64,000 bases of DNA, taken from the NCBI RefSeq assembly GCF_026151205.1, contig NC_087079.1, positions 15,066,445 to 15,130,444 of the forward strand, in the 5' to 3' direction. Position 1 is the stretch's first letter, and each line of letters opens with the position of its first letter. The stretch is from Bolinopsis microptera (lineage: Eukaryota > Ctenophora > Tentaculata > Lobata > Bolinopsidae). Shown one piece after another: positions 19,118 through 54,420 of the stretch. The notes beneath the pieces were generated by a model. That model made no database searches. It worked only from the letters and a program-made list of their open reading frames with translations, and was not told the DNA's origin. A program made the translations under genes and the position numbers.

Positions 19118-22100
19118 TCATATCAGAACAGTTTTAACCAATTCCTCCAACCCTAACTCATGTTCCGTTAAATAGTGACTAGCTAAAGAATGGTGTGAAC
19201 CCTCATAACTACAGTCCGAGTAAATACACGCTAAATTGACAGCCGTGCACCAGCCAACGTTGGGATGTGTGTGTAGTGCCATACTGCTCCTCAACTGGTA
19301 CTGAAATAGGGTTAGGTTGTTACGATCCACTTGGTTTACTGTCTCAATTATAATCAAACCTCCATTTTAGTTGCTACTAGATGTGCGTGATCCAGTACGA
19401 GTATGAATACGCTGCATAATGCATAATTCATACTCGCAACAGTAGAATCTCAGCACTGTATATTCATAGCACTGCTAGGCACGACCGATGTCATGGTTCT
19501 TGCGCGCATGAGGCGCGCGGTTTTAACGGTTGTACTCGATCTGAAATAGACTTTTTTTACAATAAAATGTTGCTGCGCCATCCACATATGTGTTTGGTTA
19601 AAAATTTTCCCGAAGTTGTTGTAGGAAATATTAAGGATTGCCATTCCGCACGTACGTTTTTAACTTTAACATCGAGCAAGAAGTAATAATTATTGAATAA
19701 AAATTCAGTTTATAAATGGGATAATAATATCTTTAGCTACATAATTTGAAGATTGATCCATTACTGATAATTTCAATGGTATCATGAGTCATCAACTGAA
19801 TCGAATAGTGTCTACTCTTTCGTGAGATAATTAAATTAAGTCAAAAAAAATCTGTGCCCATAACATCAGGTAAAGATTATAGTAATTTGACAGGGAATAA
19901 ATGCATCAAATTATAAATTATCAGCTCTATCTTGTCGTACGTGTGTCAAAACTCGCCAAATCAGACAGCACAGCTGTAATTACAAGGTTTGATTATCGTT
20001 TAAGCTTTGAGAAGTTATCATCATAAAAGAGCAGTATTTTTATATCAACGTTTATTAATACACCAAAGTGACCGTTCATATATACAACGTTCTAAAGCGT
20101 TTTTTAGTCATTTATAAAACCTTCCGTTACACAGAGATTTCATATATTATTTTATGTTAGCGTAAGCATTTAAGTTTTTTGACACGAATATCCATATAAG
20201 GATAACTTAGTAAATATGCGAATAGTTAAGTTATCAAGGTTTCTTGAGTATGCATCTGTCACTTTAACCTTCACGAAACAGGTTCTCTTACTTTTGCGTA
20301 AAATTGCTGATCGAAATAAATTGTACCAAAGTAAAGGTGCATTCCGAAAATTGAATTGAAAAGTGAAAATAACCATCAAAACATAACAATTTTTTTGAAG
20401 CAAATATAAGTTCAAATTTTAGTCGTGGATTAAGATCGCATTAAATTTCAGAATTTCCACGACTTCGCTAGGATATATACACAACATCTTTACATTAAGG
20501 TACCTAACTGGATATACCCAGGATATTACTCACCTGTTTGCATTGCGCACATAGCTGACATTCCTCACAGGCAGACTGGTGTTCCTGGGAATGACACAAT
20601 TCTGTAAATCTCACTCAAGTAAATCAGAGTTCAGACTATCTGATGGATCATCAGTTACAGTTTTCAAATCAGAACACTCTAATCCATGAATGTGCGGTAG
20701 AAATTGTGGATAAATTAAGTTATAAGGCCCCGGGAGAAAGCAATGAATGTTATCATCTAGCGACACCCAATATGAATTCAGTGCTAATATGATTTTGACG
20801 ACCCAGGTAATCAAATTTACATATATTCAGAAAGAAGATAATCAACTCGAACGTATGTAAATGAATTATGACGGCTGATAATTTAAAGTGGAATATGGTC
20901 GGTGTATGTAGGTCCCATACCGCAAAAAATCAGAGAAAATATTTTGAGATTGGACAAGAATTCGATATAGAATTGCCAAGCTATCGCAATGCTATGACAG
21001 ACATTCATTGTTCTAGAAATTTCTAAATCAGATTAAAAAGTAGAAGTACGTGCTAACCTGTAGGTCATTAAACTGGATAGTTGTATCGCAAAACTGACAC
21101 CGCACCTGAAAACGTCAGATCAATGTATGAACAGCTGGTAGGGTTTGAAAAGTTTAGTTAAATTGATGACAGTCTCTAATTACCTCTGGATTGTATAGTA
21201 GTAGTAGTAAAGCTTCAACATGCTAGGTAATCAAAATTATACATTTTTTTGACACATCAAATTCTCCTAATAGTAAACAGAAAATTAGTAGAGTTTTTCC
21301 CATAGCGTTCCTTTCACAAATGTACTCACTTTAACATTTAAAGATCTCTTCAGATCGCTAAACCTGGAATTTATCTACTCTTGACGGCCGATAACATAAC
21401 ATATAACACATTTACAAAATAATACCCGCAGCGTTCTTTCACACATTCCTTAGAATATTGTCTTGACTGAACGCTAGTAAATGTGACAAGTGACATCTCG
21501 ACGAGAATCCTTTGAAAAGTAAAAAGTGTATGCATTATGCAATCGTGTACCTACTAGTAAAACAATCTAAAGTATCTATTGCTTGATTACTCTCTTTTAA
21601 TACCGTACCAATCCCATTCATGCAAGTCTCCGTATTTCTTATTATATCACGTTATCAATCAAAACATAGGTTAATAAAACAAAATTTAATTTTCATAGTC
21701 AGTCAAAAGAATATTTAGTGATATGGTTTTATGAGAAATAAACATAATTCATGTTTTCAAAATATGGGATGTGAGGAGTGGTTCACTGGAGCATGACCGT
21801 TCGGAAGACTTGGGGTAACCTAAACCCAGTTGTTGTGTCTTGTGTCTGAATGTTTAGTGTTGTGTACCTTACCTGGGGATCCCAGGCTATTATGTTCATA
21901 AACATAATAGAGATTCGGCGAAATGACAGGCTGAGCGCCGCCCAGTAACGTGTACCACAACCTGTCAACTTAAGGTCATTGTCAATTTTGCTTTGCCCAT
22001 TTTGCTTACTTTTTGATTTAAATTTTTGAGCAGGTTGATAAAGAGCAATTTAATCCTTTCTGATATCATTTTCATCTGAAGATTCCGAATTTTCTGAATT

Positions 22101-25100
22101 CTTTGGAATGAAGTTTCTATCTCATGTGGAGCAAAAGTTATGACCTGGTTTTCGATGTGGAGCAAAAAAGTGTGGAGCACCCCGATAAAATCTATGCTTT
22201 TTGACTATTTTGATCGCCATTTAACAAATAGATCCTGGACGTTAATTGCAAAATATTTTCACTGCCAAATCATAAAATGGACCTCAGCCAGTGTGGAGCA
22301 GTCGAAATATCCTCATATTTTTCGTCTCAACCAGGGGTAAACATTACAGTAGAATCTCCGTCTTTTCACAAAATCTTAGTTTAAAGGAATACGCACCAGA
22401 TAACATTATCAATAATGGTACACCTTGCTCAACCGATGCGGAGCACGAAACTATTATAGCTTAGTTGGGAATACTGATTGGGAAGAAACTGAGTTTTGAA
22501 AGTGAGTGTGATTAAAAACGATAAATACATCTAATCAGGCCATAAAAATATCATTTTTTCTTGTGATTATGTTCAGACCCCCTGACTCTATTCTTTGGAA
22601 CTGCTGATAAACCTAGTAATGCTCAACCATGTGGAGCAGAGGACTTTTACTGCATAACATGACTCCTCATCGGCTGATATGACTTCGATGAGAAATTAGA
22701 ATGAGTATTTTAGCTTTTACATTAAATTACTAGCAGAACAGATTGAAAAATTGTATTTAATAGGCTCAACCAGAGAGGAGCAGAATGGAATGATAAATTG
22801 ATAACACAACTATTTGTAAGGATCAGTATTGTTATATTAGGATAAAGGAGGAATGATATCATCAATACTTAAGAAGCTGTTGATGTATGTAGTACTGTGT
22901 CCTTTAAAGAGAAATATGCCACCATAGAAAAAGACAATATGCTCAACCGTGAGGAGCAACAGGCTTTTCTACGGTAAAAAGAGTCTCCATGATGGTCGAT
23001 CTGTAGCCAATTTGTACGTAATGCAATTTAAAGTTTACTGATATACTTTAAATACTTTTCTTACCATGATTGGGCCATGATTTATGTTCCAGAACTGTTC
23101 AGCCAGAGTGGAACAGAGCTAGAAATGACATGTCATGTACGGGATTCCTCAACTGCCTAACATTTGATGAAGATCTCTCTTGCATGCGGCTGTAGAATGA
23201 AGTAGTGAGCTTCGAAAATCTAATACAACAGAAATTATCTCTGCTCCACACAGGTTGAGCACTGAATAGTTCCCGTGAAGTAAGTTTATTGACCACCAAT
23301 ATTATAACATATTTTCTCTAGAATGAATAAAAATAATATCCCATGAAGCACTTAAAAGTTGTCTCGATTGATCAAAAGGAAGACCTCTTTTTGCTCCACA
23401 TGGTTGAGATAGGCTGTTCTCGACTAAAGAGTCTGCATCAACGGTGAAAATATAGATACAGGAGTCAAGATGTAAATCACAGAAGTCACTTTATCTCAAC
23501 CCAGAAAGAATTTAAAAGTTGGCAAATTTTTAACCATTTTGGGCTCCACAGGGTTGAGAGAAGTGTACTGAATATAAATATCCGTTTCAGTACTCAAAAT
23601 AGAGTTAGTAAGAGTTACCAAGCTAAAAAAATCTTACAGATCTATAATACTAAACAAAAGCATTATGAAAAGCTAATAAATTAAAAATTTACAAATTTCT
23701 ACATTGCCAAAACCTCGCTCCACGTCGGTTGAGACATGGTGTGTTATCGCAAATAGTCAAAAACTCTTGAGAGGGGTTTCAGCTAAAAAGTTCATAGAGG
23801 TTCAACCAAAAACTTGACTGTTTAGCGTATGATTTTTGGTCTTGAAAATTGCCTAACTTTCAAGCTACTGCTCCACACAGGCTGAGCATTAAAAGTTGTC
23901 TCAACCGGGGCTTTCTGTGTAGATGGGACCTTTTTCTGAGAGGCTCAACCTGTTTTGACTGCCTGATTCAGTTACCAACGAGATTGCACAAATTTTTAAA
24001 ATGTCACTTTGAAGCACTGATATGCTCCACATTGGCTGAGTAACACATATAGATTACATGTTAAAGTGTCCAGTGAACATTTGTTTCCATCTGGGTGAAA
24101 TATTAACAAAGGGTGAACACCAGGCGGCATGCTAGCTCACTAAATAGCTCAACCGGTCAAATTGTACCAATTTTGGCAGTCAAATTTGGGCAAAGCAAAC
24201 TTTACAATGACCTTAAACAATTTACCCGTACGTGATTATGAGGATTACAAACGTTCAACGTTCCAACTCACAATATAATGCTGACACCCAGACTCGTGGT
24301 CAGTAATGGTAGATCTCTTGCACTTTTGGGAACAATCTTTGTGTTTACACCGCACTAGTACTTCTTCACAGTGTTCTGCATGTGCCTGAAGAGAAGTAAC
24401 ATAAAGTAACATAAAGTAACGTAACGTAAGTAATATGATACATAGTTAAAATTTGTTACAAGAGGAAATACCAAATCTACTAATATAGTCTCGTAAAGGT
24501 TCTTTGTTCTTCCTAAGTTAATTTACAGTAGATTACATTGTTGGAAAAGAAGAAACACACTTATCATTTATCAGAAATATCAGTAATATAATGATAATAG
24601 ATTTATGGTATTTTAGCCATCTCTACTCAGCTATACAATTCTGATCCCAACAGCAATGACTTAATTTTGATCCTATAATGCATCGGGCACACGTTACAAA
24701 GTATAATATAATAAAAAGGAATAGAACAGGTTATATTACTAACTTTCTATGGTTTATGGTCCCAACTGGCTCCCTAATGTCTGCCCGGTTATGGTCAAAT
24801 TTCTCTTAGATTTGTGCCATGACGCTGTAATGTTGATATGCAGATATTACAACTAAGAGCTCATGTATAGAGATGACGACAATGAATTTTCAAAAACTTA
24901 CAATTTAAAGCGTGCTCAGGATTCTCAGAAAACATAGGGTATCATGCCTTATATATAATATCAATATTATTATGGAGTATGAGGCAATGAGAATGGCGCA
25001 TATCACGTAGCTGCAGCCATGTTATTGCTCAATTACAAATCTGTGCTTGCTATCCTGTCAATAAAAAGTAAAGTTTTAATAATCAATCCTGTATTCACAC

Positions 25101-28100: not shown

Positions 28101-31100
28101 ATGACGTAGCATACAGCATAACAACGCGCGTAGTTAAGATGTTTTTGCTCGCGCACGTGCATTTTAACGTTGCTACGCAACAGCGCAGTAAACCTTTGCT
28201 AAAATAACGACATTATTCTAACGGTTATTTTACCTCACTTCCGACGTTAATTATAAAAAATCTAAAGCCTAAATCAAAATTCTAAGAATGCTATAGCCTA
28301 TTCCTATCCTTTTTCTACAACCCTGCTAAAAATGGCGAGGTTTCAACTCCATTTGCGAGCTGGGTTTGATTTCACCAGAGGGTCATTTTGAGGTCGATTT
28401 TCGGTGTTTTTTCTTCTATGTCCCCGTTGCCGGGGAAATTTCGTCAAGTTTAAATTATAATATAGATAATAAAGGCGGAATTTTCTTGTAATGATAATAG
28501 TAATCAATATTCATTGATACCACCTAGTATTTGCGGTTGATATTCGATTTCGTTAATAATAGACTATTATTCGACTGGAGAGTACTAAGGGGGATTAATG
28601 AATTATTAATCCTATTCTATTTGCGTGTAATATCATACAGGTGCACACCGCCAGGTTATTTATAGCAGGATGGAATAACTCAGTTCCGTAATAACTCAGT
28701 TCCGTAATAACTCAGTTCTATAATATTCACGGCAAATATATCCACTCCCCGTTTTTATTCCGTCAAGGATAAGTACATTTTCTTACGACTCCCAACTTTA
28801 TTATAAGTTCCTACCAAGCATGCCAGACAATATAGTCACGTGACATACCACGTGACTATGTGTATGTGACTAGGCTCATTTATATGACACATAATCAGCA
28901 ACCACTTCCTCACGAAGTTTAACGCAGTTGCCACTACCTGACTAGTGACTACCCAATATTAACTTAACTTTATTACGAGTAAAGAAGTTGCCATTATCAA
29001 AATTACGCTATCATAACTCATGTATAAGTTATATATCATTAGCTATAACTTATAAGTAAAGTTACTTTATTAGTAAATCAATTAATTAAGTAAAGTTACT
29101 TTATTATAAGTTACTTTATTATAAGTTACTTTATTATAAGTTACTTTATAAGTAAATTAACCTGACGAAAGTCGTAGAAATCTCCGGTCCAGGAGCACAG
29201 AGTACACTCCACTTTAATAGTCTTTATGTGTTTGGAGACAAAGCTGTTAGGGGTGAATACTTCTGTTACTGGGGCGGCTTTACACTGTGGACAACATGAT
29301 CTGAAATTATGGGGTCAGTTGGGTATTGGATCAAACATCAGGGACACTAGGTAGGGACACTGGGTAGGGACACTGGGTAGAGACACTGGGTAGGGACACT
29401 GGGTAGGGACACTGGGTAGGGACACTGGGTAGGGAGTTACAGGGACACTGGGTAGGGACACTGGGTAGGGACACTGGGTAGGGACACTGGGTAGGGACAC
29501 TGGGTAGGGACACTGGGTAGGGACACTGGGTAGGGACACTGGGTAGGGACACTGGGTAGGGAAACTGGGTAGAGACACTGGGTAGGGAAACTGGGTAGGG
29601 ACACTGGGTAGGGACACTGAGTAGAGACACTGGGTAGGGACACTGGGTAGGGAGTTACAGGGACACTGGGTAGGGAAACTGGGTAGGGACACTGGGTAGG
29701 GACACTGGGTAGGGACACTGGGTAGAGACACTGGGTAGGGACACTGGGTAGGGAAACTGGGTAGAGACACTGGGTAGGGAAACTGGGTAGAGACACTGGG
29801 TAGGGACACTGGGTAGGGACACTGGGTAGGGACACTGGGTAGAGACACTGGGTAGGGACACTGGGTAGGGAAACTGGGTAGGGACACTGGGTAGGGAGTT
29901 ACAGGGACACTGGGTAGGGACACTGGGTAGGGACACTGGGTAGGGACACTGGGTAGGGACACTGGGTAGGGACACTGGGTAGGGACACTGGGTAGGGACA
30001 CTGGGTAGGGACACTGGGTAGGGACACTGGGTAGGGAAACTGGGTAGAGACACTGGGTAGGGAAACTGGGTAGGGACACTGGGTAGGGACACTGAGTAGA
30101 GACACTGGGTAGGGACACTGGGTAGGGAGTTACAGGGACACTGGGTAGGGAAACTGGGTAGGGACACTGGGTAGGGAAACTGGGTAGAGACACTGGGTAG
30201 GGACACTGGGTAGGGACACTGGGTAGGGACACTGGGTAGGGACACTGGGTAGGGACACTGGGTAGGAATCTGGGTAGGGACACTGGGTAGGGACACTGGG
30301 TAGGGAGTTACAGGGACACTGGGTAGGGAAACTGGGTAGGGACACTGGGTAGGGACACTGGGTAGGGACACTGGGTAGAGACACTGGGTAGGGACACTGG
30401 GTAGGGAAACTGGGTAGAGACACTGGGTAGGGAAACTGGGTAGAGACACTGGGTAGGGACACTGGGTAGGGACACTGGGTAGGGACACTGGGTAGAGACA
30501 CTGGGTAGGGACACTGGGTAGGGAAACTGGGTAGGGACACTGGGTAGGGAGTTACAGGGACACTGGGTAGGGACACTGGGTAGGGACACTGGGTAGGGAC
30601 ACTGGGTAGGGACACTGGGTAGGGACACTGGGTAGGGACACTGGGTAGGGACACTGGGTAGGGACACTGGGTAGGGACACTGGGTAGGGAAACTGGGTAG
30701 AGACACTGGGTAGGGAAACTGGGTAGGGACACTGGGTAGGGACACTGAGTAGAGACACTGGGTAGGGACACTGGGTAGGGAGTTACAGGGACACTGGGTA
30801 GGGAAACTGGGTAGGGACACTGGGTAGGGAAACTGGGTAGAGACACTGGGTAGGGACACTGGGTAGGGACACTGGGTAGGGACACTGGGTAGGGACACTG
30901 GGTAGGGACACTGGGTAGGAATCTGGGTAGGGACACTGGGTAGGGACACTGGGTAGGAAAACTGGGTAGGAAAACTGGGTAGGGAAACTGGGTAGAGACA
31001 CTGGGTAGGGACACTGGGTAGGGAGTTACAGGGACACTGGGTAGGGAAACTGGGTAGGGACACTGGGTAGGGAAACTGGGTAGAGACACTGGGTAGGGAC

Positions 31101-34100
31101 ACTGTGTAGGGACACTGGGTAGGGACACTGGGTAGAGACACTGGGTAGAGAGTTACAGGGACACTGGGTAGGGAAACTGGGTAGGGACACTGGGTAGGGA
31201 AACTGGGTAGAGACACTGGGTAGGGACACTGGGTAGGGACACTGGGTAGGGACACTGGGTAGAGACACTGGGTAGGGACACTGGGTAGGGACACTGGGTA
31301 GGGACACTGGGTAGGGACACTGGTTAGGGACGAGGTCACTGGTTAGGGACACTAGGGACAGGGACACTGGGTAGGGACACGGATTATGATATATTCCGTA
31401 AAATTAGTAACGTCTCTGGACTGTTGCAAATTAATTTGTCGCTCATGCCGCGTTACTAGATTAATAAATAAGTTGTGTAGTGTGTACTGGATTTTATTTA
31501 TTGTGGTGGTATTGCCACCATCATGTTAGCTGAGATTTTGTTTGGTCATGACTCATGCTTCCCAGCTTCCTCGCTGTAGACTCTACACTGGATTGATCAA
31601 ATCCAGACAATTTGTGGTTTATAACCAGCCTCAGCCTGTTTTCTTGAGAATCTGGTGAATTGCGGTGGAGCACAGAGTACACTCCACTTATGGTGGAGAA
31701 TGGGAGGGAAATCTGGTCGGATAGCTGTCCTCTTCTAGCCGACTCACTGACACACTGACTCACTGACACACTGACTCACTGACACACTGACTCACTGACT
31801 CACTGACTCACTGACTCACTGACTCACTGACTCACTGACTCACTGACTCACTGACTCACTGACTCACTGACTCACTGACTCACTGACACAGCCACTCCGA
31901 AAAGAGGTGAACACGTGTTTCAGATGTTACTTCTTCAACTATTCAAACAAATAAATGAATTTTAATTGCTAGCCGAATTGGAAATAAATGTTTTCCTTAA
32001 AAAATGTTAGTTCGGCGATCAGCAGACAAGAGTTCAGTTCAGTTCGGTTAGGATAAATCTGAATACTATTGTCACGTGACAACGATTAAATTATCAGCAT
32101 CCAGCTCTGACAAGAATAAACGTCACGTGTCAAAACAAATACTGTTCACCACTCCACCAGAGTACACATCTATTGAACACTAACTCCCGGCACTCCGTTT
32201 CATGGTATGAACCAAAATTAAAGAATACATTTCCAACGGTATCGGCTATCTAATTCACCATTGTAACTGCGTTATGTATACATAATTTATTACACATTAG
32301 TGATTACTTTTATACATCTGTTATTACTAATTCATTATACAAGGTGGCCCAGAAGTAACTGCCCACACGCAACCCTTCAATAACTCACGTAATTCTTCTT
32401 AAAATTGCGCAGAAATTTCAGATATTATACAGATGTTATAGATATGGGTCAAACTTAGATTTCCTGAAAATTTCGTCAAATTTAATTAATTACAGTGGGT
32501 GTGGCACGCCAATCCCTCTTTATAACTATGTACATTACATGTGGAAATCGGGTTTTACTTTATTTTTTCCAGAAATAATAGGAAACCTCTTCGCTACCTA
32601 TTCCTTATTATTCCGTTTTATCATGTTGACAAGAAAGATCGGATTTCTCTCCGGTAGTTGATTCCGTTGATATTTGTGTATAAATAATAAATATTCGTGT
32701 GACGTGTACTCTGCAGATTTGTATTCTAGTTACATTAATTTTAAAGTTAACAATGCTCAACAGTTAGATGTTATATGGTTTTTTGCTTTTTTTAATGTAG
32801 TGTTTAAATCATTATACAATATACACTCTATTACATAAGATGATGTGAAAGTTAATTTTGTACTCAAATTCAGCTCAAAAAATGAATTGCGAAATCATAC
32901 GTACGTGATGTTTTAACAATAAACAAAAGTAACGATACTTGATATGACTAAACGGTATAAACATCGCAGATTGAGATATGCGACACCCACTGTAACGAAT
33001 ATTTCGTTCTTTTGATATCATACAGTAAGTTTGATTTAAACTGTCAATATAATATTTACCTTTACATATACAGGTAAATATTATATTGACGCACTATATT
33101 AAACTTACAATATGAGATCAAAAGCACTAAATGGTACTTAAAGTGACATGAGCAAAATCTGCCTTCCCGTTTTGGGATGGTTTTGAAAATTCATGTGATT
33201 TTCCTCTAAGATTTAAGTTTTAATGTTTTGCAGAAAATTGATTTTCTGATGATTTTCAGATATTATACAGATGTTATAGATATGGGTCAAACTTAGATTT
33301 CCTAAAAATTTCGTCAAATTTAATTAATTACAGTGGGTGTGGCACGCCAATCCCTCTTTATAACTATGTACATTACATGTGGAAATCGGGTTTTACTTTA
33401 TTTTTTCCAGAAATAATAGGAAACCTCTTCGCTACCTATTCCTTATTATTCCGTTTTATCATGTTGACAAGAAAGATCGGATTTCTCTCCGGTAGTTGAT
33501 TCCGTTGATATTTGTGTATAAATAATAAATATTCGTGTGACGTGTACTCTGCAGATTTGTATTCTAGTTACATTAATTTTAAAGTTAACAATGCTCAACA
33601 GTTAGATGTTATATGGTTTTTTGCTTTTTTTAATGTAGTGTTTAAATCATTATACAATATACACTCTATTACATAAGATGATGTGAAAGTTAATTTTGTA
33701 CTCAAATTCAGCTCAAAAAATGAATTGCGAAATCATACGTACGTGATGTTTTAACAATAAACAAAAGTAACGATACTTGATATGACTAAACGGTATAAAC
33801 ATCGCAGATTGAGATATGCGACACCCACTGTAACGAATATTTCGTTCTTTTGATATCATACAGTAAGTTTGATTTAAACTGTCAATATAATATTTACCTT
33901 TACATATACAGGTAAATATTATATTGACGCACTATATTAAACTTACAATATGAGATCAAAAGCACTAAATGGTACTTAAAGTGACATGAGCAAAATCTGC
34001 CTTCCCGTTTTGGGATGGTTTTGAAAATTCATGTGATTTTCGGTTTTCCCCTAAGATTTAAGTTTTGACGTTTTGCAGAAAATTGATTTTCTGATGATTT

Positions 34101-40984: not shown

Positions 40985-41310
40985 GGTGGGCAACAATTGA
41001 CCCCCGACAATTGACCCCCGACAATATAATTTAATACAATTGACCCTGACCCTAACCCTAACCCTAACCCTAACCCTGACCCAGGACTCTGACCCTAACC
41101 CTAACCCTAACCCTAACCCTGACCCAGGATCCTGACCCTAACCCGATCAATTGACCCCGGTGTAATTACATGGGGGGTCAATTGTCAGGGGGTCAATTGT
41201 CGTACTAAACCCTAGATTTCGCGACAATTGACCCCAGTGTAATTACATAGGGGTCAATTGTCGGGGGGTCAATTGTCGGGGGGGTCAATTGTCGCGGTAC
41301 CCCCCAGTAC
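40985..41310. repeat. CAATTGACCCC inverted cluster around telomere-like repeats
   Basis: Copies of ACAATTGACCCC at 40989-41050 and 41155, and of GGGGTCAATTGTC at 41170-41300, surround two runs of CCCTAA repeats (about 41048-41078 and 41093-41122). The inverted flanks suggest a compound element that carries telomeric repeat. Confidence 0.8.
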
Positions 41311-42345: not shown

Positions 42346-43747
42346 TCAGCTTACATTAAATTGTATCTGACCATCCAAAACAGTAAGATAAACTTTAGAA
42401 CCAGCCCTAATCTTATTCTCCAAGTTCATATCAGCTATTTTGTTAACAACTCTGCGGGATACCTCGTTTTTCAGTGACCTAGCACCGTAGTTAGAATCAA
42501 TAGCTGTGGCAAGTAGCGCTACTGCGCTGTCACTCCACGAAACTTCAATGTTTTGTTTCTCGGCGTACTGTTTGATTCGAAGTAATTCTCGTTCTACCAG
42601 CTTCAGACATTGCTCAGAGGTGAAAGGTAAAAAGTAAACGATCTCGTTTATTCTGCCCAAGAACTCATTTCTCCGGAATGCTCGTTTCAGTTCAGGGTAC
42701 ATGACGTACTTCTTGAAGTCCTCGTCTATCTCAGAAGCTGAGTTTGCGATCTGGTCAGCCCCCACGTTGGTTGTCATCACAAATAATGCGTTGGGACAAA
42801 GTATTGTTTTTCCTTTACCGTCTGTTAATCGTCCTTCGTCGAACAACTGAAATAATAACGAGATTTAACAACGTTCTTATCAAATTGCATCCTTTTTTAA
42901 CGCATAGCTTAAATTCTAGTTTCTACCTGTCTATTTCGTCAACGGCAAAATCGTTCATAGACGAAAAATAGTACAGAAATCCCCAAATTACAAACCTGCA
43001 ACATTATATTGAGAACATCTGGATGAGCTTTCTCCACCTCATCGAACAAAACCACCGACTCAGGATGATCAGTGAGAGCCTTGGTCAGCTGACCTCCCTC
43101 ATCATGTCCGATATACCCTGGTGGGGAACCAATAAACTTGGAGACCTCGTGTCGCTCCTGGAACTCGCTCATATCAATACGGATAAAGGAGACCTTGCTG
43201 TCAGGATTGTTGTCGTTCTTGTGCGCAGCGAGCTGCTTTGCTGTTTCTGTTTTGCCGATACCAGACGAACCAACGAACAGCATCACGAGGGGTTTGTCGT
43301 CTTGCCAGCCCAGATCTCTTCTCTGAACAGCTGATGTAACTAAAGCCAGTGCGCTCTCCTGACCGATCACTTTATCCTTGAGAAATGGTCCTAAACTTAG
43401 AATACGTTTCTTCTTTTCCACCTGCTCCTGCTCCTTCAACATTTTCTTTATCTCCGAGTCCGCAGCCAGATCAACAGGAAGAAACCCAGTGTTAGTCCTG
43501 GAGTTCACGCTAGCCCCAGCCTCCACCAGCACTTTAACCATCTTAACATCGTCATTTATCACAGCGTAGTGTAGCGGGGTGAACCCGGCCCAGTTCACGT
43601 TGAGCTTGTAGTTGGGGTTCAGGGTGAGACGCTGCTGGTGGACATTAACTAGGTCTACTTTGGAGATGTTACCCGGGGGATATTGATCAGCTACATTCAC
43701 GTCCACTCCAAACCTGGGGGGTTTAATTGGGTCAAGATGAGGAATCA
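42346..43747 (-). CDS. CLPB: CLPB (SKD3) mitochondrial AAA+ disaggregase, C-terminal exons
   Basis: Exons 42996-43747 and 42346-42846 join in phase (CAG|GTTTGT donor, TTTCAG acceptor) and encode an ankyrin repeat (GFTPLHYAVINDD) followed by the AAA+ module. Seen are Walker A GSSGIGKTETA, the pore loop PPGYIGHDEGGQL, Walker B VVLFDEVEKAHPDV, sensor 1 TTNVG, the arginine-finger region FRRNEFLGRINEIVYFLPF and sensor 2 YGARSLKNEV. Order and residues match metazoan CLPB, which keeps proteins soluble in the mitochondrial intermembrane space. Compared with human CLPB the loop after TTNVG is shorter and the C-terminal tail is missing. The N-terminal exons are at 57649-58214. The joint needs at least one more exon: this block starts in phase 1, while the upstream exon ends in phase 2. 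Confidence 0.93.
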
Positions 43748-44320
43748 CTATATGTAAATTGTAAAATAGCGTTCTATTTCAGGAGTATCACTGTAGAATA
43801 TTGAGCAGGTTAAACTCATATAGAAGATAAAACGATATAGAGACTAGAGAGGTTAGCCGTAAAATCTGTATCCTCTCAAATATTTAGGCCTAGCAGAAAT
43901 ATCATAGTTGGATTAACTGAATAGAGGACGGCGAACATGATGCTGATGTTTATTTTCATCATAACCCAAGTTTTAGCTGTTTTTAAGCCAGTGCCCATCG
44001 AATATTATAATGATAATTAAAAACGCATAAAAATCGAGTTTATCAAACAGCTGTCTAGAACTTGATGTGTAATTACATGGTCTGATAAATTCGCTCCACT
44101 CGCCCTATATTACTATTTCTGAACATAATACGGTAAATTAATAATCATAAGTTTCTTAAAGAAAGTTCCGACAGTCCATCAAAATTAAAACTAGTGTCTT
44201 ATAATTTCTCCGCTTCTACTAGTACTGCTACCCAGGCAGGTGCTCATTAACAGCCACAGTTTACCACAGCCTTTTGTTATAGAATTTTATACATATTTTG
44301 CCCCAGCCCCAAGTCCTCTA
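43748..44320. other. Start of the large CLPB intron; no gene seen
   Basis: AT-rich sequence with no recognised exon. The stretch 44225-44320 and 45410-45480 together resemble 49815-49980, suggesting duplicated flanks of the GPCR genes; the transposon at 44321-45376 interrupts this copy. Confidence 0.4.
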
Positions 44321-45376: not shown

Positions 45377-45695
45377 AATATAACTTTCTTTCGTTTACAA
45401 CTATTTTTTTTATATTAAGGCCCAATTTTATATAATTAATGATGGACGATGATTAATGGTAGACCACATTTATATGAACGTTTAATAAAATTATACAGAG
45501 TAAAACGGACAAAATCTGGCAATGGAATAGCGATAACAAATGCTGATCAACAGCAAATATTTTTAGTGGCCGGACCAATATTTTGGGTATCTTTACCCAA
45601 AAATGCTTGGTCGTTCCCAGGGCCCAAACATTTTAATCCTATGTAAATTAATATTCTAAAGTATCATTTCCTAGTTATAGCCTGACAATCAAACA

Positions 45696-46688
45696 ATGCC
45701 ATCCAACCAATCCCTACTGCCCCTCTTTAGCTTTGCAGGGCAGAAACGGACACAGCACGATGCTGAGCGGTACATCTGGGCATTGTGGCTGATGTTGATC
45801 TTTGTAGTGTCCCTGTTCGGGGATTCTGTCATTCTAGCTGCTTCCATCAAGTATAACGCCTTTAAACTGCACAAAGTTCTAGTAACGTTCATTCAGCACA
45901 TTGCAGTCTGTGATCTCCTGTTGTCGTTTGTGAGCATTTTGACACAAAGCGTTTCTTTGATGGCAAATGGTTGGGTCTTCGGAAGTTTTGTTTGTTACGT
46001 AAAAGTATACTTCCACTTCGGAGTCAGTTCTGCTAGTCGCCTTCTGGTTTGCGGGATGGCTGTAAGTAAACTTGTTATGTCGAGGTACCCTGACAAAACA
46101 AGATCCTGGTCCACCAAGCATGCTCACATAACGTGCGCAGGACTCTGGGCTTTATCTTGCTGCGTTCCAGCAGTGTTTCTAATTGTAGATAAGGATGACA
46201 TCAGGATTTGTGAAATCCAACTCACGTGTAATTACAATGTTTCTTCCGCTGTTTGGATTGTGTCAAGGCCGATCATAACAGGGCTCTTCGTGGCCATTCC
46301 AACGATAATAGTCGTCATTACATCCATTTTCTTAGTGAAACATCTGCTTTATGCTAGAAAAGTAGCCAACAGAACACGTGGAAGGGTACGCTGGCAAGGC
46401 ATCGCTACTGTTCTTGTTACAGCTGCAGTCTACTGTGTCTCTTTTATTCCCAAGGCAATTCATATGTCGATAAGAATCTACGTGAAAAATGAATGGTATC
46501 ACGTGATAGTTCCCCGGGTTACAGAGACACTGACGTATTTCAACGTTTTCTCCAATTTCTTTGTCTATAGTCTTACAGTGCCCAGTTTTCGGTTGTTTCT
46601 TAAAACCAGGATGGAACAGGCGACATCATCAACACATCCTAGTGTAGATCCAGGTAATTGTAACTTTCAATCATGTTTAAATTTTTAA
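45696..46688 (+). CDS. Class A-like GPCR, atypical DRY motif (copy 1)
   Basis: A seven-helix receptor of 330 residues. TM2 has the conserved aspartate (HIAVCDLLLSF), TM3 begins with the conserved cysteine (FVCYVKVY) and ECL2 has a partner cysteine (CNYN). The DRY position reads SKL (AVSKLVMSRYP). TM6 has YCVSFIPKAI in place of CWxP, and TM7 NFFVY in place of NPxxY. TM1 carries GD where GN is usual. A splice acceptor (TTTCCTAG) ends 22 bases before the ATG, so a 5' UTR intron is likely. A donor at 46654 (CAG|GTAATT) and an acceptor at 46777 would replace the last residues with a 26-residue tail ending at 46857. Ligand unknown. It lies antisense in the CLPB intron and is very similar to the copy at 53428. 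Confidence 0.85.
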   Translation: MPSNQSLLPLFSFAGQKRTQHDAERYIWALWLMLIFVVSLFGDSVILAASIKYNAFKLHKVLVTFIQHIAVCDLLLSFVSILTQSVSLMANGWVFGSFVCYVKVYFHFGVSSASRLLVCGMAVSKLVMSRYPDKTRSWSTKHAHITCAGLWALSCCVPAVFLIVDKDDIRICEIQLTCNYNVSSAVWIVSRPIITGLFVAIPTIIVVITSIFLVKHLLYARKVANRTRGRVRWQGIATVLVTAAVYCVSFIPKAIHMSIRIYVKNEWYHVIVPRVTETLTYFNVFSNFFVYSLTVPSFRLFLKTRMEQATSSTHPSVDPGNCNFQSCLNF

Positions 46689-48130: not shown

Positions 48131-48141
48131 GAAGGGACAAT

Positions 48142-49167
48142 ATGCACACCGAACCGTACATCAAATATGATAACGAAACCTTGTATGGAATCCAAGACAA
48201 GGCAGGAAGAGATCTTCTAACATTATATAGCTCTACCATATTCCTATCATCACTCATAGGAGACGTACTCATATTGATAGGAACGCTTAGATGCAATGCA
48301 ATAAAACTACACAAGGTAATGGTGGTAATAATCCAGTACATAGCTCTCACCGACCTGATCATCGTCATCTTTAGAGCCTTGCCTGGCTCCGTGTCTTTGG
48401 TAGCTGAAAGGTGGATATTTGGTGACTTCCTCTGTTATGCTGGATACGTTATAATCTGTACTGCTGGAGGGACTGCCTGTCTTCTCATCCCTGTTCTCTC
48501 ACTCACCAAGTTGCTGATCGTAAAGTTCCCTCTGAGAGCGACAAGTATCTCTACCAGGGCTGCTCATTTTGCCACACTTAGCCTGGTGCTCTACTGCAGT
48601 TTTTCACCTGTGCTAGAAATAATTGTGGACAAAAAAAGTGCTTACTTCAGTTACCTTGACTACAATTGTGACGTCGTCCAATATCTTCACCATACTGCAG
48701 GTTCTACTATCTGCACTGTCCTGGTTGGGTTGAGCGGGCTCCTTGCTACCATGACAACTGTAGTGAGCAGTGTGATGCTGGTTGATGTTGCCAGGAAGAT
48801 GACTGAGAGGGGGCCAGGACAGCTCCAGTGGCAGGGACTAATAACTGTGCTCCTCACTGTAGCAGTTTACTCAATAGCTACCCTTCCTGGAACCATCTAC
48901 TTTATAGGCAGCTGCCTCGTGGCTGAAAGCCAGGTAGAGCTATTCAAGTTCTGGAATGTCTACGTATACAGGTTTTCTACTTACATGGTCTTCCTCAACA
49001 TCATCTCCAACTTCTACATCTACACGCTCACTCTCACAAGCTTTAGAGAGTTCTTGAGAGCCAGGGTTAGATTCCTGGTATCCCCTCTCCTGAGATGTTG
49101 CTCTCCGACTGGGTCAACAGATGAAAGGGTCGGTGAGAATGGAGAAAGACGTAGACTTTTGGATTAA
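48142..49167 (+). CDS. Class A-like GPCR, atypical DRY motif (copy 2)
   Basis: 341 residues, seven helices. TM2 aspartate is in YIALTDLIIVI, the TM3 cysteine in DFLCYAGY, ECL2 CD at about residue 178. The DRY position reads TKL (LSLTKLLIVKFPL), TM6 ends with ATLPGTIYFI and TM7 has NFYIYTL in place of NPxxY. An acceptor TTATTTCAG ends 12 bases before the ATG. The C-terminus is long, with a CC pair (LLRCC) that could be palmitoylated and an acidic/arginine tail. It is more distant from copies 1 and 3 than they are from each other but shares the layout and the RGPGQLQWQG-like loop before TM6. Ligand and coupling are unknown. Confidence 0.85.
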   Translation: MHTEPYIKYDNETLYGIQDKAGRDLLTLYSSTIFLSSLIGDVLILIGTLRCNAIKLHKVMVVIIQYIALTDLIIVIFRALPGSVSLVAERWIFGDFLCYAGYVIICTAGGTACLLIPVLSLTKLLIVKFPLRATSISTRAAHFATLSLVLYCSFSPVLEIIVDKKSAYFSYLDYNCDVVQYLHHTAGSTICTVLVGLSGLLATMTTVVSSVMLVDVARKMTERGPGQLQWQGLITVLLTVAVYSIATLPGTIYFIGSCLVAESQVELFKFWNVYVYRFSTYMVFLNIISNFYIYTLTLTSFREFLRARVRFLVSPLLRCCSPTGSTDERVGENGERRRLLD

Positions 49168-51377: not shown

Positions 51378-51435
<58 letters not shown>

Positions 51436-53070
51436 GGGGGGTCAGTACTCAGTACCCATACGTTGGCTCAATCACTGAGTGCCCAATTGAAATAATTCTT
51501 TCTGGTATGACTTACTACCACCATACAGTAACAACTAACAAGTAGTATATTTCGAGAACTCTCGATTAATTAAAGATTTATGACTATGTACCAAATTATT
51601 TGCAGTTGAAAAACCTGGTAATGAACACACCTGGCTCAGATTTGTAATCTTAGACAATAAAAAGCGCGAGCGTAATTTTTCTTTGCCGATTATACATGGT
51701 GTACATGACTACATGTGGTAAGCCAGTATCTGTGCAACTTGAAATTGCATCGAATAACATTAACATTTTATTTTGGGGGGGGGGGGGGGGGGGGGGGCAA
51801 CCATATTAAAGTATATTAAAATGTAGGATTTTTCCCGATTTTGACCCGGGGATATACTTTAATATACTTTAATATACTTTAATATATCCCTATCTCCTTG
51901 GAGGCCTACATCAAAACTTGTTGCCCAAAATAAGCTTGAAATGCAATCCTTAATCGATTCCAAAAAGTTCTTGAAAAAATATTGAAAACTGATGGAGTTA
52001 TTTCAATTTTAATGAAGTTATTTTGGCTAGTATTCTGAACCGAGATATTATGTGCAATTTTCCCAATTTTGTTCATGGAGGTCTTTTTACTTAGTATCCA
52101 CTATATCCAACAAACACTGAGTTATATCTTTTACATAGTCTCATTAAAAATATTGAAATTTTATCGAATTTGGGCAAAAGCGAATTTGGACAAAAGCGTA
52201 TGCCCAAATATGGGCATATTTTTTAAAGCTCATAGCTCAGCCAATTTTTGACCAATCTGGATGGAAATTCGTGTACTAGTCCTAAATCAGGCTTATCTTG
52301 CGAATCTGAGTGAAAAATATAGTTCATCATGTAAATCTTAACGAAGAATATAAATCTTCTAATTGTAGGTATATTAAAGTATATTAAAATGTAGGATTTT
52401 TTCCGATTTTGACCCGGGGATATACTTTAATATACTTTAATATGGTTGCCCCCCCCCCCCCCCTATTTTTGTTATTTTTTATTCAAGGGTCGTTCACATA
52501 TTACGTAATCAGCAGAGGGGGAGGGGGTTTTATTTAGTTTCCAAGTTCAGTTCCCAAATGAATACGGTGGGGGGGGGGGGAATTTAGTTGGAAAGGTGCT
52601 TGGCCGAATATCATAACAATGATTTCGGCTCATAATGAAATGACCAGGGTAGCATAGAACGTAGAGAAAAGTGTTTTCCAGGGAAAAAGTGAAAAATGAT
52701 CATGCTGTCGGGATTCTAGTCTATGACCTAAAGTTAAAGTCTCATACAAGATTTAATCATTTTCGGGGCCAAATAAAAAGCTATCACATTTTATTTGTGT
52801 TTCAAAATATGGGCATATAGTTTTTGGCTCATAACACGGCCATTTTGTGTCCAAACTGGATGTAAATTCGTTAATGAGTTCAATAAGGGACTAAATGGCT
52901 TATCTTGTAAATCTTAACGAAGAATATAAATCTACTAATTGTACTATTTAGGTATATTAAAATGAAGGTTTTTCCGATTTTGACCCGGTATATTAAAATG
53001 ACCCGGTATATTAAAATGAAGGTTTTTCCGATTTTGACCCGGGGATATACTTTAATATACTTTAATACGC
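51316..53070. repeat. Modular repeat of ATATTAAAGTATATTAAAATG inverted units
   Basis: The block CAACCATATTAAAGTATATT...CCGATTTTGACCCGGGGATATACTTTAATAT occurs at about 51317-51376, 51798-51890, 52372-52448 and 52948-53070. Each block is itself an inverted repeat (TATATTAAAGTATA against TATACTTTAATATA). Between 51775 and 52464 two blocks face each other and the outer edges are a G23 run and a C16 run, as if the element ends in poly-G/poly-C. The whole region interrupts the spacer between GPCR copies 2 and 3. Confidence 0.8.
51378..51441. repeat. Poly-G tract of 57 bases
   Basis: An uninterrupted run of 57 G, then A and six more G. Such long G runs form quadruplexes and are hard to sequence, so the length is approximate. 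It directly follows a TATACTTTAATATACA module end. Confidence 0.9.
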
Positions 53071-53189: not shown

Positions 53190-53395
53190 CACGTGACAGG
53201 CTAGTAAAACATGAATTCGATTGTTTAGGGCTCGGATTAGGGTTGTGGTTAGGGTTATGGATAGCTTCGGGGTTATGGTTAGGGTTAGGGTTGGGATTAG
53301 GGTTTATGTAAAATCATTTTGTACGGCTGCAAAACCATAAAAACCAAAGTCACGTGAAATTTTTGGGCGAGCGAATTAGTAAGAGCCATTTTAGA
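53190..53395. repeat. Dispersed element with TTAGGG-like repeats, second copy
   Basis: Degenerate GGGTTAG/GGATTAG units at 53222-53312, flanked by TTTTGTACGGCTGCAAAACC then AAAAACCAAAGTCACGTGAA. The same flanks, inverted, lie at about 40315-40378, and the distal side (AAAACATGAATTCGATTG) matches 40695-40720. So telomere-like sequence is part of a repeat family. Confidence 0.8.
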
Positions 53396-53427
53396 TTATC
53401 ATAATACTATCCTGTTTCAGTTTTGCT

Positions 53428-54420
53428 ATGAGTATGATATCTAGCCAGCCTCTACTATCGCACTTGGACCCCGCACCACAAATACAGAATAATGCTGAGC
53501 GACTTATCTGGGCAATGTGGCTTCTGGCCATATTTGTAGTCTCAGTTTCAGGGAACATGATCATCCTCCTCGCTTCCATAAAGTACAATGCCTTTAAACT
53601 GAACACAGTTATTGTGACAATCATTCAGCATATTGCCGTCTGTGATCTCGTACTATCTTTTGTCAGTATTTTGACACAGTGTGTTTCTCTAATGGCTGAT
53701 GGTTGGGTCTTCGGAACATTCCTCTGCTACGTAAAAGTGTACTTCAACTTCGGAGTCAGTACAGCCAGCCGTCTTTTAATTTGTGGCATGACTGTAAGCA
53801 AACTACTGATGATAAAATACCCAATCCAATCAAAATCCTGGTCCACGAAACACGCACACGTGACATGTGCAGGACTCTGGGCGTTATCTTGCTGTGTCCC
53901 TGCAGTGTTCCTTATCGTAGATAAGAATGACATCACGATCAGTGACAGCCAGTACACTTGCAATTATAGAAGTTCCTCTACTATTTGGAAAATGCTAAGA
54001 CCGATCGTGACGGGTCTATTTGTGGTGATCCCCACTATCGTAGTGGTGGTTACATCCATTGTCCTGGTGAAGCATCTAATTTATGCGAGAAAAGTATCAA
54101 TCCGAAGTGGGGGTAAGCTTCGCTGGCAAGGCATCGTAACTGTTCTTCTTACTGCAACAGTTTACTGTCTTTGTTTCCTCCCCAAGGCGATTCATATGAC
54201 AATTAAGTTTTACGTGGACGATGACTCGTACCAAGTGAAGGCTCCACGGATTACAGAGACCCTCATGTACACCAACGTTGTTGCTAATTTCTTTGTCTAC
54301 AGTCTCTCATTGGACAGTTTTCGGCAGTTTCTTAAAAGCAAGATGACGACAACATTAACCAGCATGAAATCAGGTAATCAGGAAACAATTGGAGACATCA
54401 AGAGACCCAACATCAATTAG
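53428..54420 (+). CDS. Class A-like GPCR, atypical DRY motif (copy 3)
   Basis: 330 residues, highly similar to copy 1 throughout (for example KYNAFKL, HIAVCDL, SLMADGWVFG, TKHAHVTCAGLWALSCC, DRFRQF-like SFRQFLKSKM end). TM1 keeps the usual GN (SGNMIILLAS), TM2 aspartate and TM3 cysteine are present. The DRY position reads SKL (TVSKLLMIKYP), TM6 has YCLCFLPKAI and TM7 NFFVYSL. An acceptor CCTGTTTCAG ends 7 bases before the ATG, as in copies 1 and 2. Directly after the stop a 21-base unit with AGCAGACATTCCCCTGCA is repeated twice. It is a tandem paralogue on the antisense strand of the CLPB intron. Confidence 0.85.
   Translation: MSMISSQPLLSHLDPAPQIQNNAERLIWAMWLLAIFVVSVSGNMIILLASIKYNAFKLNTVIVTIIQHIAVCDLVLSFVSILTQCVSLMADGWVFGTFLCYVKVYFNFGVSTASRLLICGMTVSKLLMIKYPIQSKSWSTKHAHVTCAGLWALSCCVPAVFLIVDKNDITISDSQYTCNYRSSSTIWKMLRPIVTGLFVVIPTIVVVVTSIVLVKHLIYARKVSIRSGGKLRWQGIVTVLLTATVYCLCFLPKAIHMTIKFYVDDDSYQVKAPRITETLMYTNVVANFFVYSLSLDSFRQFLKSKMTTTLTSMKSGNQETIGDIKRPNIN

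Follow-up and report, generated by a model that had tools for sequence, protein, structure and literature searches.

We analysed a 64,000-nucleotide stretch of the genome of the ctenophore Bolinopsis microptera (RefSeq assembly GCF_026151205.1, contig NC_087079.1, positions 15,066,445 to 15,130,444 of the forward strand; hereafter the window), in which one element, flanked by TTAA and bounded by terminal inverted repeats (TIRs), carries twelve dyad motifs (Table 1). The element is a non-autonomous TIR transposon. It shows the hallmarks of a TIR cut-and-paste DNA transposon (TIRs, a target duplication of fixed length and, as described below, independent insertions), and the list of open reading frames (ORFs) holds none of at least 100 amino acids (aa) within its boundaries. 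A scan of the window against Rfam returned nothing at the gathering threshold.

Each of the twelve sites has the form TGCTCAACC-(2-3 nt)-GTGGAGCA and consists of two facing half-sites, CTCAAC and CTCCAC (half-site consensus CTC(A/C)AC); six sites on the forward strand are followed by six on the reverse strand. This layout had been proposed in a first-pass annotation of the sequence, and the number of motifs, their orientations and their intervals were all confirmed, the intervals to within 1-2 bp. The motif definition given there was too narrow: the strict pattern matches just 4 of the 12 sites, while a 17-position score at a threshold of 14 recovers all 12, together with one stray match elsewhere in the 64 kb. 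Dinucleotide-shuffled windows (n = 15) gave 0-1 matches each by the same score. Over 36 sites from the family of the window element (family A) and two sister families (B and C), the dyad has an information content of ∼26 bits, and 35 of these sites have 2 or 3 nt between the conserved blocks. Half-sites beyond the dyads are also enriched (8 observed vs. 0.66 expected). Helical phasing of the dyad intervals gave R values of 0.37-0.53 at periods of 10-11; the intervals are mutually dependent and the result was not used.

The motif had also been described as a short hairpin, and hairpins or cruciforms read as DNA or RNA structure would offer one account of the array. Weak folding is indeed predicted, four of the 12 sites having energies between -0.7 and -4.1 kcal/mol as DNA, but the stem positions do not covary: pairing across the 36 sites was 16, 17, 28, 33 and 36, vs. 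13.3, 18.7, 25.7, 33.1 and 36 expected under independence. The dyad therefore acts like a binding site and not like a conserved hairpin, and we regard a structural explanation as highly improbable.

Table 1. Coordinates of the window element, its ends and its motif sites (positions in the window).
Feature	Position	Strand	Remarks
Left target-site duplication	21970-21973	.	TTAA, 4 bp (other copies: ATAT, TTAT, ATAA, GTAT and others)
Whole element (family A copy)	21974-24212	.	2239 bp, without ORF of at least 100 aa; from ends, length and ORF list
Left TIR	21974-21999	+	GGTCATTGTCAA...; 30-nt arms including TTAA, 93% complementary
Left half-site CTCCAC 1	22126-22131	-	
Left half-site CTCCAC 2	22157-22162	-	184 from left end (B 183, C 194)
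Left half-site CTCCAC 3	22172-22177	-	199 from left end (B 197, C 207)
Dyad 1 (left outer 1)	22281-22300	+	
Half-site CTCAACC	22326-22332	+	353 from left end (B 350)
Dyad 2 (left outer 2)	22426-22445	+	
Dyad 3 (left outer 3)	22620-22638	+	
Dyad 4 (inner)	22763-22782	+	
Dyad 5 (inner)	22940-22958	+	
Dyad 6 (inner)	23096-23115	+	
Dyad 7 (inner)	23242-23261	-	
Dyad 8 (inner)	23392-23410	-	
Half-site CTCAACC (inner)	23495-23501	+	
Dyad 9 (inner)	23542-23560	-	
Dyad 10 (right outer 3)	23716-23735	-	centre 487 from right end
Dyad 11 (right outer 2)	23869-23888	-	centre 334 from right end
Half-site CTCAACC	23900-23906	+	307 from right end (B 307, C 308)
Half-site CTCAACC	23944-23950	+	
Dyad 12 (right outer 1)	24023-24042	-	centre 180 from right end
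Half-site CTCAACC near right end	24148-24154	+	
Right TIR	24187-24212	-	30-nt arms including TTAA, 93% complementary
Right target-site duplication	24213-24216	.	TTAA

Copies of the element and two sister families

The genome assembly (264.65 Mb, 232 contigs) was searched for elements with the same ends. A DNA search with the window element returned 12 nearly full-length matches and fragments of more copies. The terminal repeat pattern of A occurs at 35 ends genome-wide, which were assigned by eye to 14 both-ended copies (12 uninterrupted, two with 4.57-kb inserts), one split copy parted by ∼7 kb, two short derivatives and a one-ended copy (L031) with no second A end within its 9.9 kb. A perfect 4-bp duplication flanks all 14 both-ended copies: ATAT in four, TTAA, ATAA and ATTT in two each, and TTAT, GTAT, CTAT and ACAT in one each. 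None of the 91 pairs of flanks are alike, and these copies are therefore independent insertions. The TTAA flanks and terminal repeats by which the element was initially recognised are present, but the TTAA at the window copy is accidental, since it is found at only 2 of the 14 both-ended copies.

Families B and C occur in the same genome and carry the same motif, and all three families have GGTCA...TGACC ends and 4-bp AT-rich duplications. Family B comprises two full copies (L019 and L020; 97% identical, each with TTAT on both sides) and a deleted form, B2, in four copies (L021-L024), a count that is a lower bound and possibly an undercount. Family C was found via the motif search, and 40 long copies were scored out of 65 candidates. 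Its 61 left and 62 right ends form 60 pairs, 56 of them of normal length; the four others comprise two with insertions (L072, L076), one copy nested in another C copy with ACAT on either side (L048) and one with 1559 bp between marks. Identical 4-bp sequences flank 36 of the 40 C loci examined (ATAT, 14, and TTAT, 10, being the commonest) and the remaining four are mismatched; TTAA occurs at three, two of which are probably one insertion. L056 and L057, with 4 bp and a few flanking bases in common, are probably a single insertion.

Spacing and polarity recur in both sister families. Counted from the right end, the centres of the outer dyads in A/B/C lie at 180.0/180.0/180.0, 334/333/334 and 487/486/486, and from the left end at 318/316.5/328, 463/461/470.5 and 656.5/654.5/663.5. 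A lone CTCAACC half-site on the right and two CTCCAC half-sites on the left likewise hold corresponding positions (Table 1), with the left positions of C offset by 7-10 bp throughout. The inner sites differ by family: A has its six and six, B has two additional reversed sites and an internal duplication, and C is shorter.

An interval near 150 bp brings to mind a nucleosome gauge, in which the spacing would set the sites in linkers or at nucleosome edges and keep the ends accessible or compact. Centre-to-centre distances of 141-157 bp are found in 8 of 11 intervals in A and, leaving aside its two reversed sites, in 6 of 11 in B. However, 154 bp less a 20-bp site leaves ∼134 bp, which is under one nucleosome; 8 of the 11 A intervals leave 122-135 bp between sites, too short for a nucleosome that does not touch the sites, and B intervals range from 62 to 203 when the reversed sites are counted. 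We thus consider such a gauge quite unlikely.

Outside the sites, ungapped identity over the right 520 bp is 0.349 for A-B, 0.314 for A-C and 0.380 for B-C, where ∼0.27 is expected by chance. B and C spacers are still visibly similar (aligned z up to 6), and some A-B and A-C spacers lack similarity yet are equal in length (e.g. 171 and 171 bp, z 0.26). Spacers that are dissimilar but of equal length, along with the residual B-C similarity, make common ancestry likely: to judge from these sequences, A, B and C most likely derive from one ancestor, with spacers near saturation.

Tests of constraint on spacing and motifs

Agreement in spacing was compared with a neutral model that took its rate of insertions and deletions (indels) from the families themselves: the private changes counted over 12 A and 39 C copies comprised 36 indels for 487 substitutions. 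With divergence set at 1.0-1.9 substitutions per site, this rate predicts ∼13-24 indels for the longest outer interval of the five, and the joint p for the agreement of all five between A and B lies between 1.4e-6 and 2e-10 according to the indel lengths and the divergence assumed. Among 3000 shuffles of site positions, the observed overlap was reached by 0-11 for A-B and by 1-20 for B-C. Among the living copies of A, 14 of 15 indel sites fall in the inner part, where 49% are expected.

The first-pass annotation had proposed testing whether the motifs are conserved above the spacers. With expected counts derived from the remainder of the element, at rates specific to base and CpG context, motifs carry about half of the expected private substitutions in both families tested (11 vs. 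23.8 in A; 24 vs. 49.3 in C), and so do not drift like the spacers, with a caveat for copy L011 in A that is taken up below. TIRs carry 0 vs. 4.6 expected in A and 4 vs. 12.9 in C, counts that may be depressed because end detection tolerated few mismatches. When the motif mask was shifted, values as low were obtained in 0 of 240 shifts for C and in 10% of shifts for A.

These results also bear on the possibility that the array arose by tandem duplication of a ∼150-bp unit, the motifs being its slowest-decaying part and functionless in the element. Arrays can grow in that way, since the internal duplication of B (76% over 168 bp) spans two motifs in its aligned part. Within A, however, the spacers are nearly without mutual similarity, as had been claimed: 2 of 110 spacer-spacer comparisons reached p<0.01, both from a single spacer pair, and no decayed 150-bp unit was recognisable when one was looked for. 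Moreover, private substitutions are scarcer than expected in the motifs even of recent copies, and near-saturated outer spacers keep their length, which makes this origin rather improbable.

Two natural deletion derivatives allow a further comparison. A 412-bp form of A without any dyad is present in two copies with the same flanks (left 201/204, right 177/202 identical). In B2, all three outer dyads on the left are missing, as is the third one on the right at the threshold applied; this form probably lies inside another repeat, because its four copies share their flanking sequence, one of them over just 31 and 82 bp. One insertion is known for each derivative, with the A ends fully listed (35) and the B count a lower bound, as expected if the arrays are needed for moving.

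Distribution of the motif and affinities of the families

All 62 exact matches to the motif in the genome lie within A or B. With up to one mismatch, 47 are in A, B or C among the 50 of 78 matches listed, and a reversed control gave 6. Since the motif is nearly confined to these families, a transposon-tied protein is favoured over a widespread host factor. In the competing view, the protein that binds the motifs belongs to the host, where it has an architectural or silencing role (a repressor or a zinc finger of the CTEP kind), and it is either exploited by the transposons or directed against them. Ctenophores possess the loop proteins CTEP1/2, and loop promoters in Mnemiopsis are described as rich in transposon insertions (PMC12221973); oriented arrays are also reminiscent of insulators. 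Yet the CTEP motif, described as GC-rich with two CpGs (PMC12221973), is unlike CTCAACC-n-GTGGAG, and the near-confinement of the motif speaks against a host protein. We therefore consider the host-protein view unlikely.

The search for an autonomous relative, as had been proposed, yielded none among the A, B and C copies and ends that were read, although elements having only short ends in common with these families would escape such searches. The 4.57-kb inserts of two A copies are insertions with reverse-transcriptase ORFs, dissimilar to each other, and provide no autonomous partner. Three unpaired C ends (L073-L075), read for ∼6 kb each, gave no transposase: a Pfam scan of seven ORFs from L073 and L075 gave Fcf2, C2H2 zinc fingers, an endonuclease and reverse transcriptase, and L074 has no ORF of 120 aa.

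Insertions with reverse-transcriptase ORFs in two A copies (L017, L018) and one C copy (L072) occupy nearly the same relative place (∼752-759 in A, 731-737 in C), which reflects either chance or an insertion hot spot. The insert of L018 has 28-bp inverted ends starting (A)CGGGTATCGGCC, an apparent TA target and a reverse-transcriptase ORF inside.

Further families were sought by several routes. Among the ∼100 of 115 places listed by a wider family search, those beyond A and B were C2:4173149, C3:13310898 and a tandem repeat near C7:19.146 Mb. Another family search gave 35 places, of which 22 were A or B and 13 other (9 in a reversed control); no array was seen at the four of these 13 that were inspected, the remainder being judged by letters alone. 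A further search gave 358 matches, of which ∼100, all from C1-C3, were listed, vs. 125 in the control. Single motifs were found in each of L028-L030, L032 and L034. At L035, two weak motif-like copies stand at the outer ends of a 71-bp inverted repeat (93%; 1293-1363 and 1953-2023) that is unlike A-C outside the motif; it may have no link to these families or be distantly related to them.

With respect to known superfamilies, the piggyBac- or Kolobok-like affinity initially suggested was ruled out by the 4-bp AT-rich, non-TTAA duplications. Kolobok has TTAA as its target duplication; no A, B or C copy was seen to encode a Kolobok transposase, though no search aimed at one was made. For piggyBac, TTAA would be expected, whereas it flanks just two of the 14 A copies and three of the 40 C loci, and the termini are GGTCA..TGACC in place of 5'-CC..GG-3' (PMC10045372). 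P elements combine a TIR with internal sites, and their distance from TIR to transposase site is specific to each end (PMC7776569); in this arrangement the present families are similar. The P element, however, has a single transposase site of 10 bp at each end, which lies 9 or 21 bp away from the TIR, an 11-bp internal repeat and an 8-bp target duplication, vs. 4 bp here. In CACTA (En/Spm) elements, both ends carry short direct and inverted repeats bound by the regulatory protein TnpA, and most copies are non-autonomous (PMC8195511). The likeness to A, B and C is evident in the subterminal repeats in both orientations at both ends and in the mostly non-autonomous copies. The differences are that A, B and C end in GGTCA instead of CACTA termini, have a 4-bp duplication, and place their sites ∼150 bp apart with spacing kept over ∼490-660 bp per end, whereas CACTA subterminal repeats are densely packed. 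Coral CMITEs are likewise non-autonomous, with an interior more conserved than their TIRs, but are described as ∼100 bp long, TTAA-flanked and piggyBac-related, with one continuous conserved block (PMC2872659). Sola2 elements have 4-bp AT-rich duplications such as ATAT and ATTT (PMC3627910), and the resemblance, which concerns the duplications, extends to the identical 4 bp at all 14 A copies and at 36 of the 40 C loci, where ATAT and TTAT are commonest. Thus, piggyBac, Kolobok, CACTA and P each fail a defining feature, and Sola2-like duplications fit. No such array is known to us from Sola2, and to the best of our knowledge sites spread ∼150 bp apart with kept outer spacing have been reported from no element. 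Titles and abstract openings in the literature, without Repbase Reports and most subscription papers, gave no matching array or ctenophore element.

Elsewhere in the window, a 13-bp unit AGGGACACTGGGT is present in ∼159 tandem copies (29340-31380), with overlapping long repetitive frames and a strong GC skew, and an (ACCCTA)n stretch at 41042-41144 is telomere-repeat-like. A CLPB-like gene with ankyrin repeats and AAA_2/ClpB_D2-small domains lies on the minus strand (42346-43778), and three rhodopsin-type G protein-coupled receptor open frames (7tm_1) form a local cluster (45681-46688, 48133-49167 and 53395-54420). A 64-position run at 51378-51441 is nearly all G and may be an assembly artefact.

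Organisation of the transposon ends

The explanation that we favour, and hold to be probable, is that this is a non-autonomous cut-and-paste transposon in which each end is a long array of sites for one dimeric, transposon-specific DNA-binding protein. From the sequences we infer the function of the arrays, in protein binding and end organisation; any placement in a superfamily is likewise tentative. The earlier suggestion of an array of protein-binding sites in a mobile element has held up in that sites were kept and spacers changed across A, B and C. The binding protein might be the transposase itself or a TnpA-like accessory. Dimers would fill the dyads, and contacts between dimers would join the left array to its counterpart of opposite orientation on the right and could so bring the two TIRs together for cutting. 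Outer sites would then have to hold their geometry, and inner sites would be free to be gained, duplicated or lost. The polarity switch at the centre, which had been singled out as unusual, is present but need not be special, since the direction of each array follows from the end to which it belongs and the body reads as two long ends joined.

Several observations weigh against this explanation. The five outer intervals were selected post hoc, and allowing for the 792 ways of choosing 5 of 12 brings the joint p to ∼1e-3 to 2e-7. The A-C position overlap is weaker, being reached by 5-127 of 3000 shuffles, and inner intervals are unequal across families, e.g. 174.5/165/154 for the third right interval. 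In C, 27 of 28 indel sites fall in the outer part (75% expected), so that living copies do carry outer indels; we read these as neutral decay after insertion, and they lend no support to constraint. Without the diverged copy L011, motif substitutions in A are 9 vs. 12.9 expected (p 0.17), and for variants common to at least two copies the motif deficit is not significant (1 vs. 1.4; 6 vs. 9.2). The deletion comparison is based on two derivatives, with B possibly undercounted, and the search of the A, B and C copies turned up no transposase, no autonomous copy and no binding protein.

By analogy, the end organisation proposed here is best read as TnpA/CACTA-like, but with a rigid ∼150-bp spacing. 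More tentatively, and with distinctly less confidence than we place in the binding array itself, the ends may be of an undescribed type in which about half a kilobase per end would serve as a ruler, its three dyads and certain half-sites lying at end-specific positions fixed almost to the base and maintained while nearly all of the intervening DNA was replaced, in a superfamily that is possibly new (GGTCA ends, 4-bp target, mostly WTAW).

Multiple accessory sites at the ends of eukaryotic transposons are already known. If the ends do act as rulers, they would imply a large multi-protein transpososome that measures long distances, and the long-range spacing kept across near-saturated divergence is a strong and testable indication that geometry is constrained. 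With its three families and more than 70 both-ended copies, this genome provides a clean system for the study of how a transpososome measures distance, and the motif can be used as bait in the hunt for the transposase.

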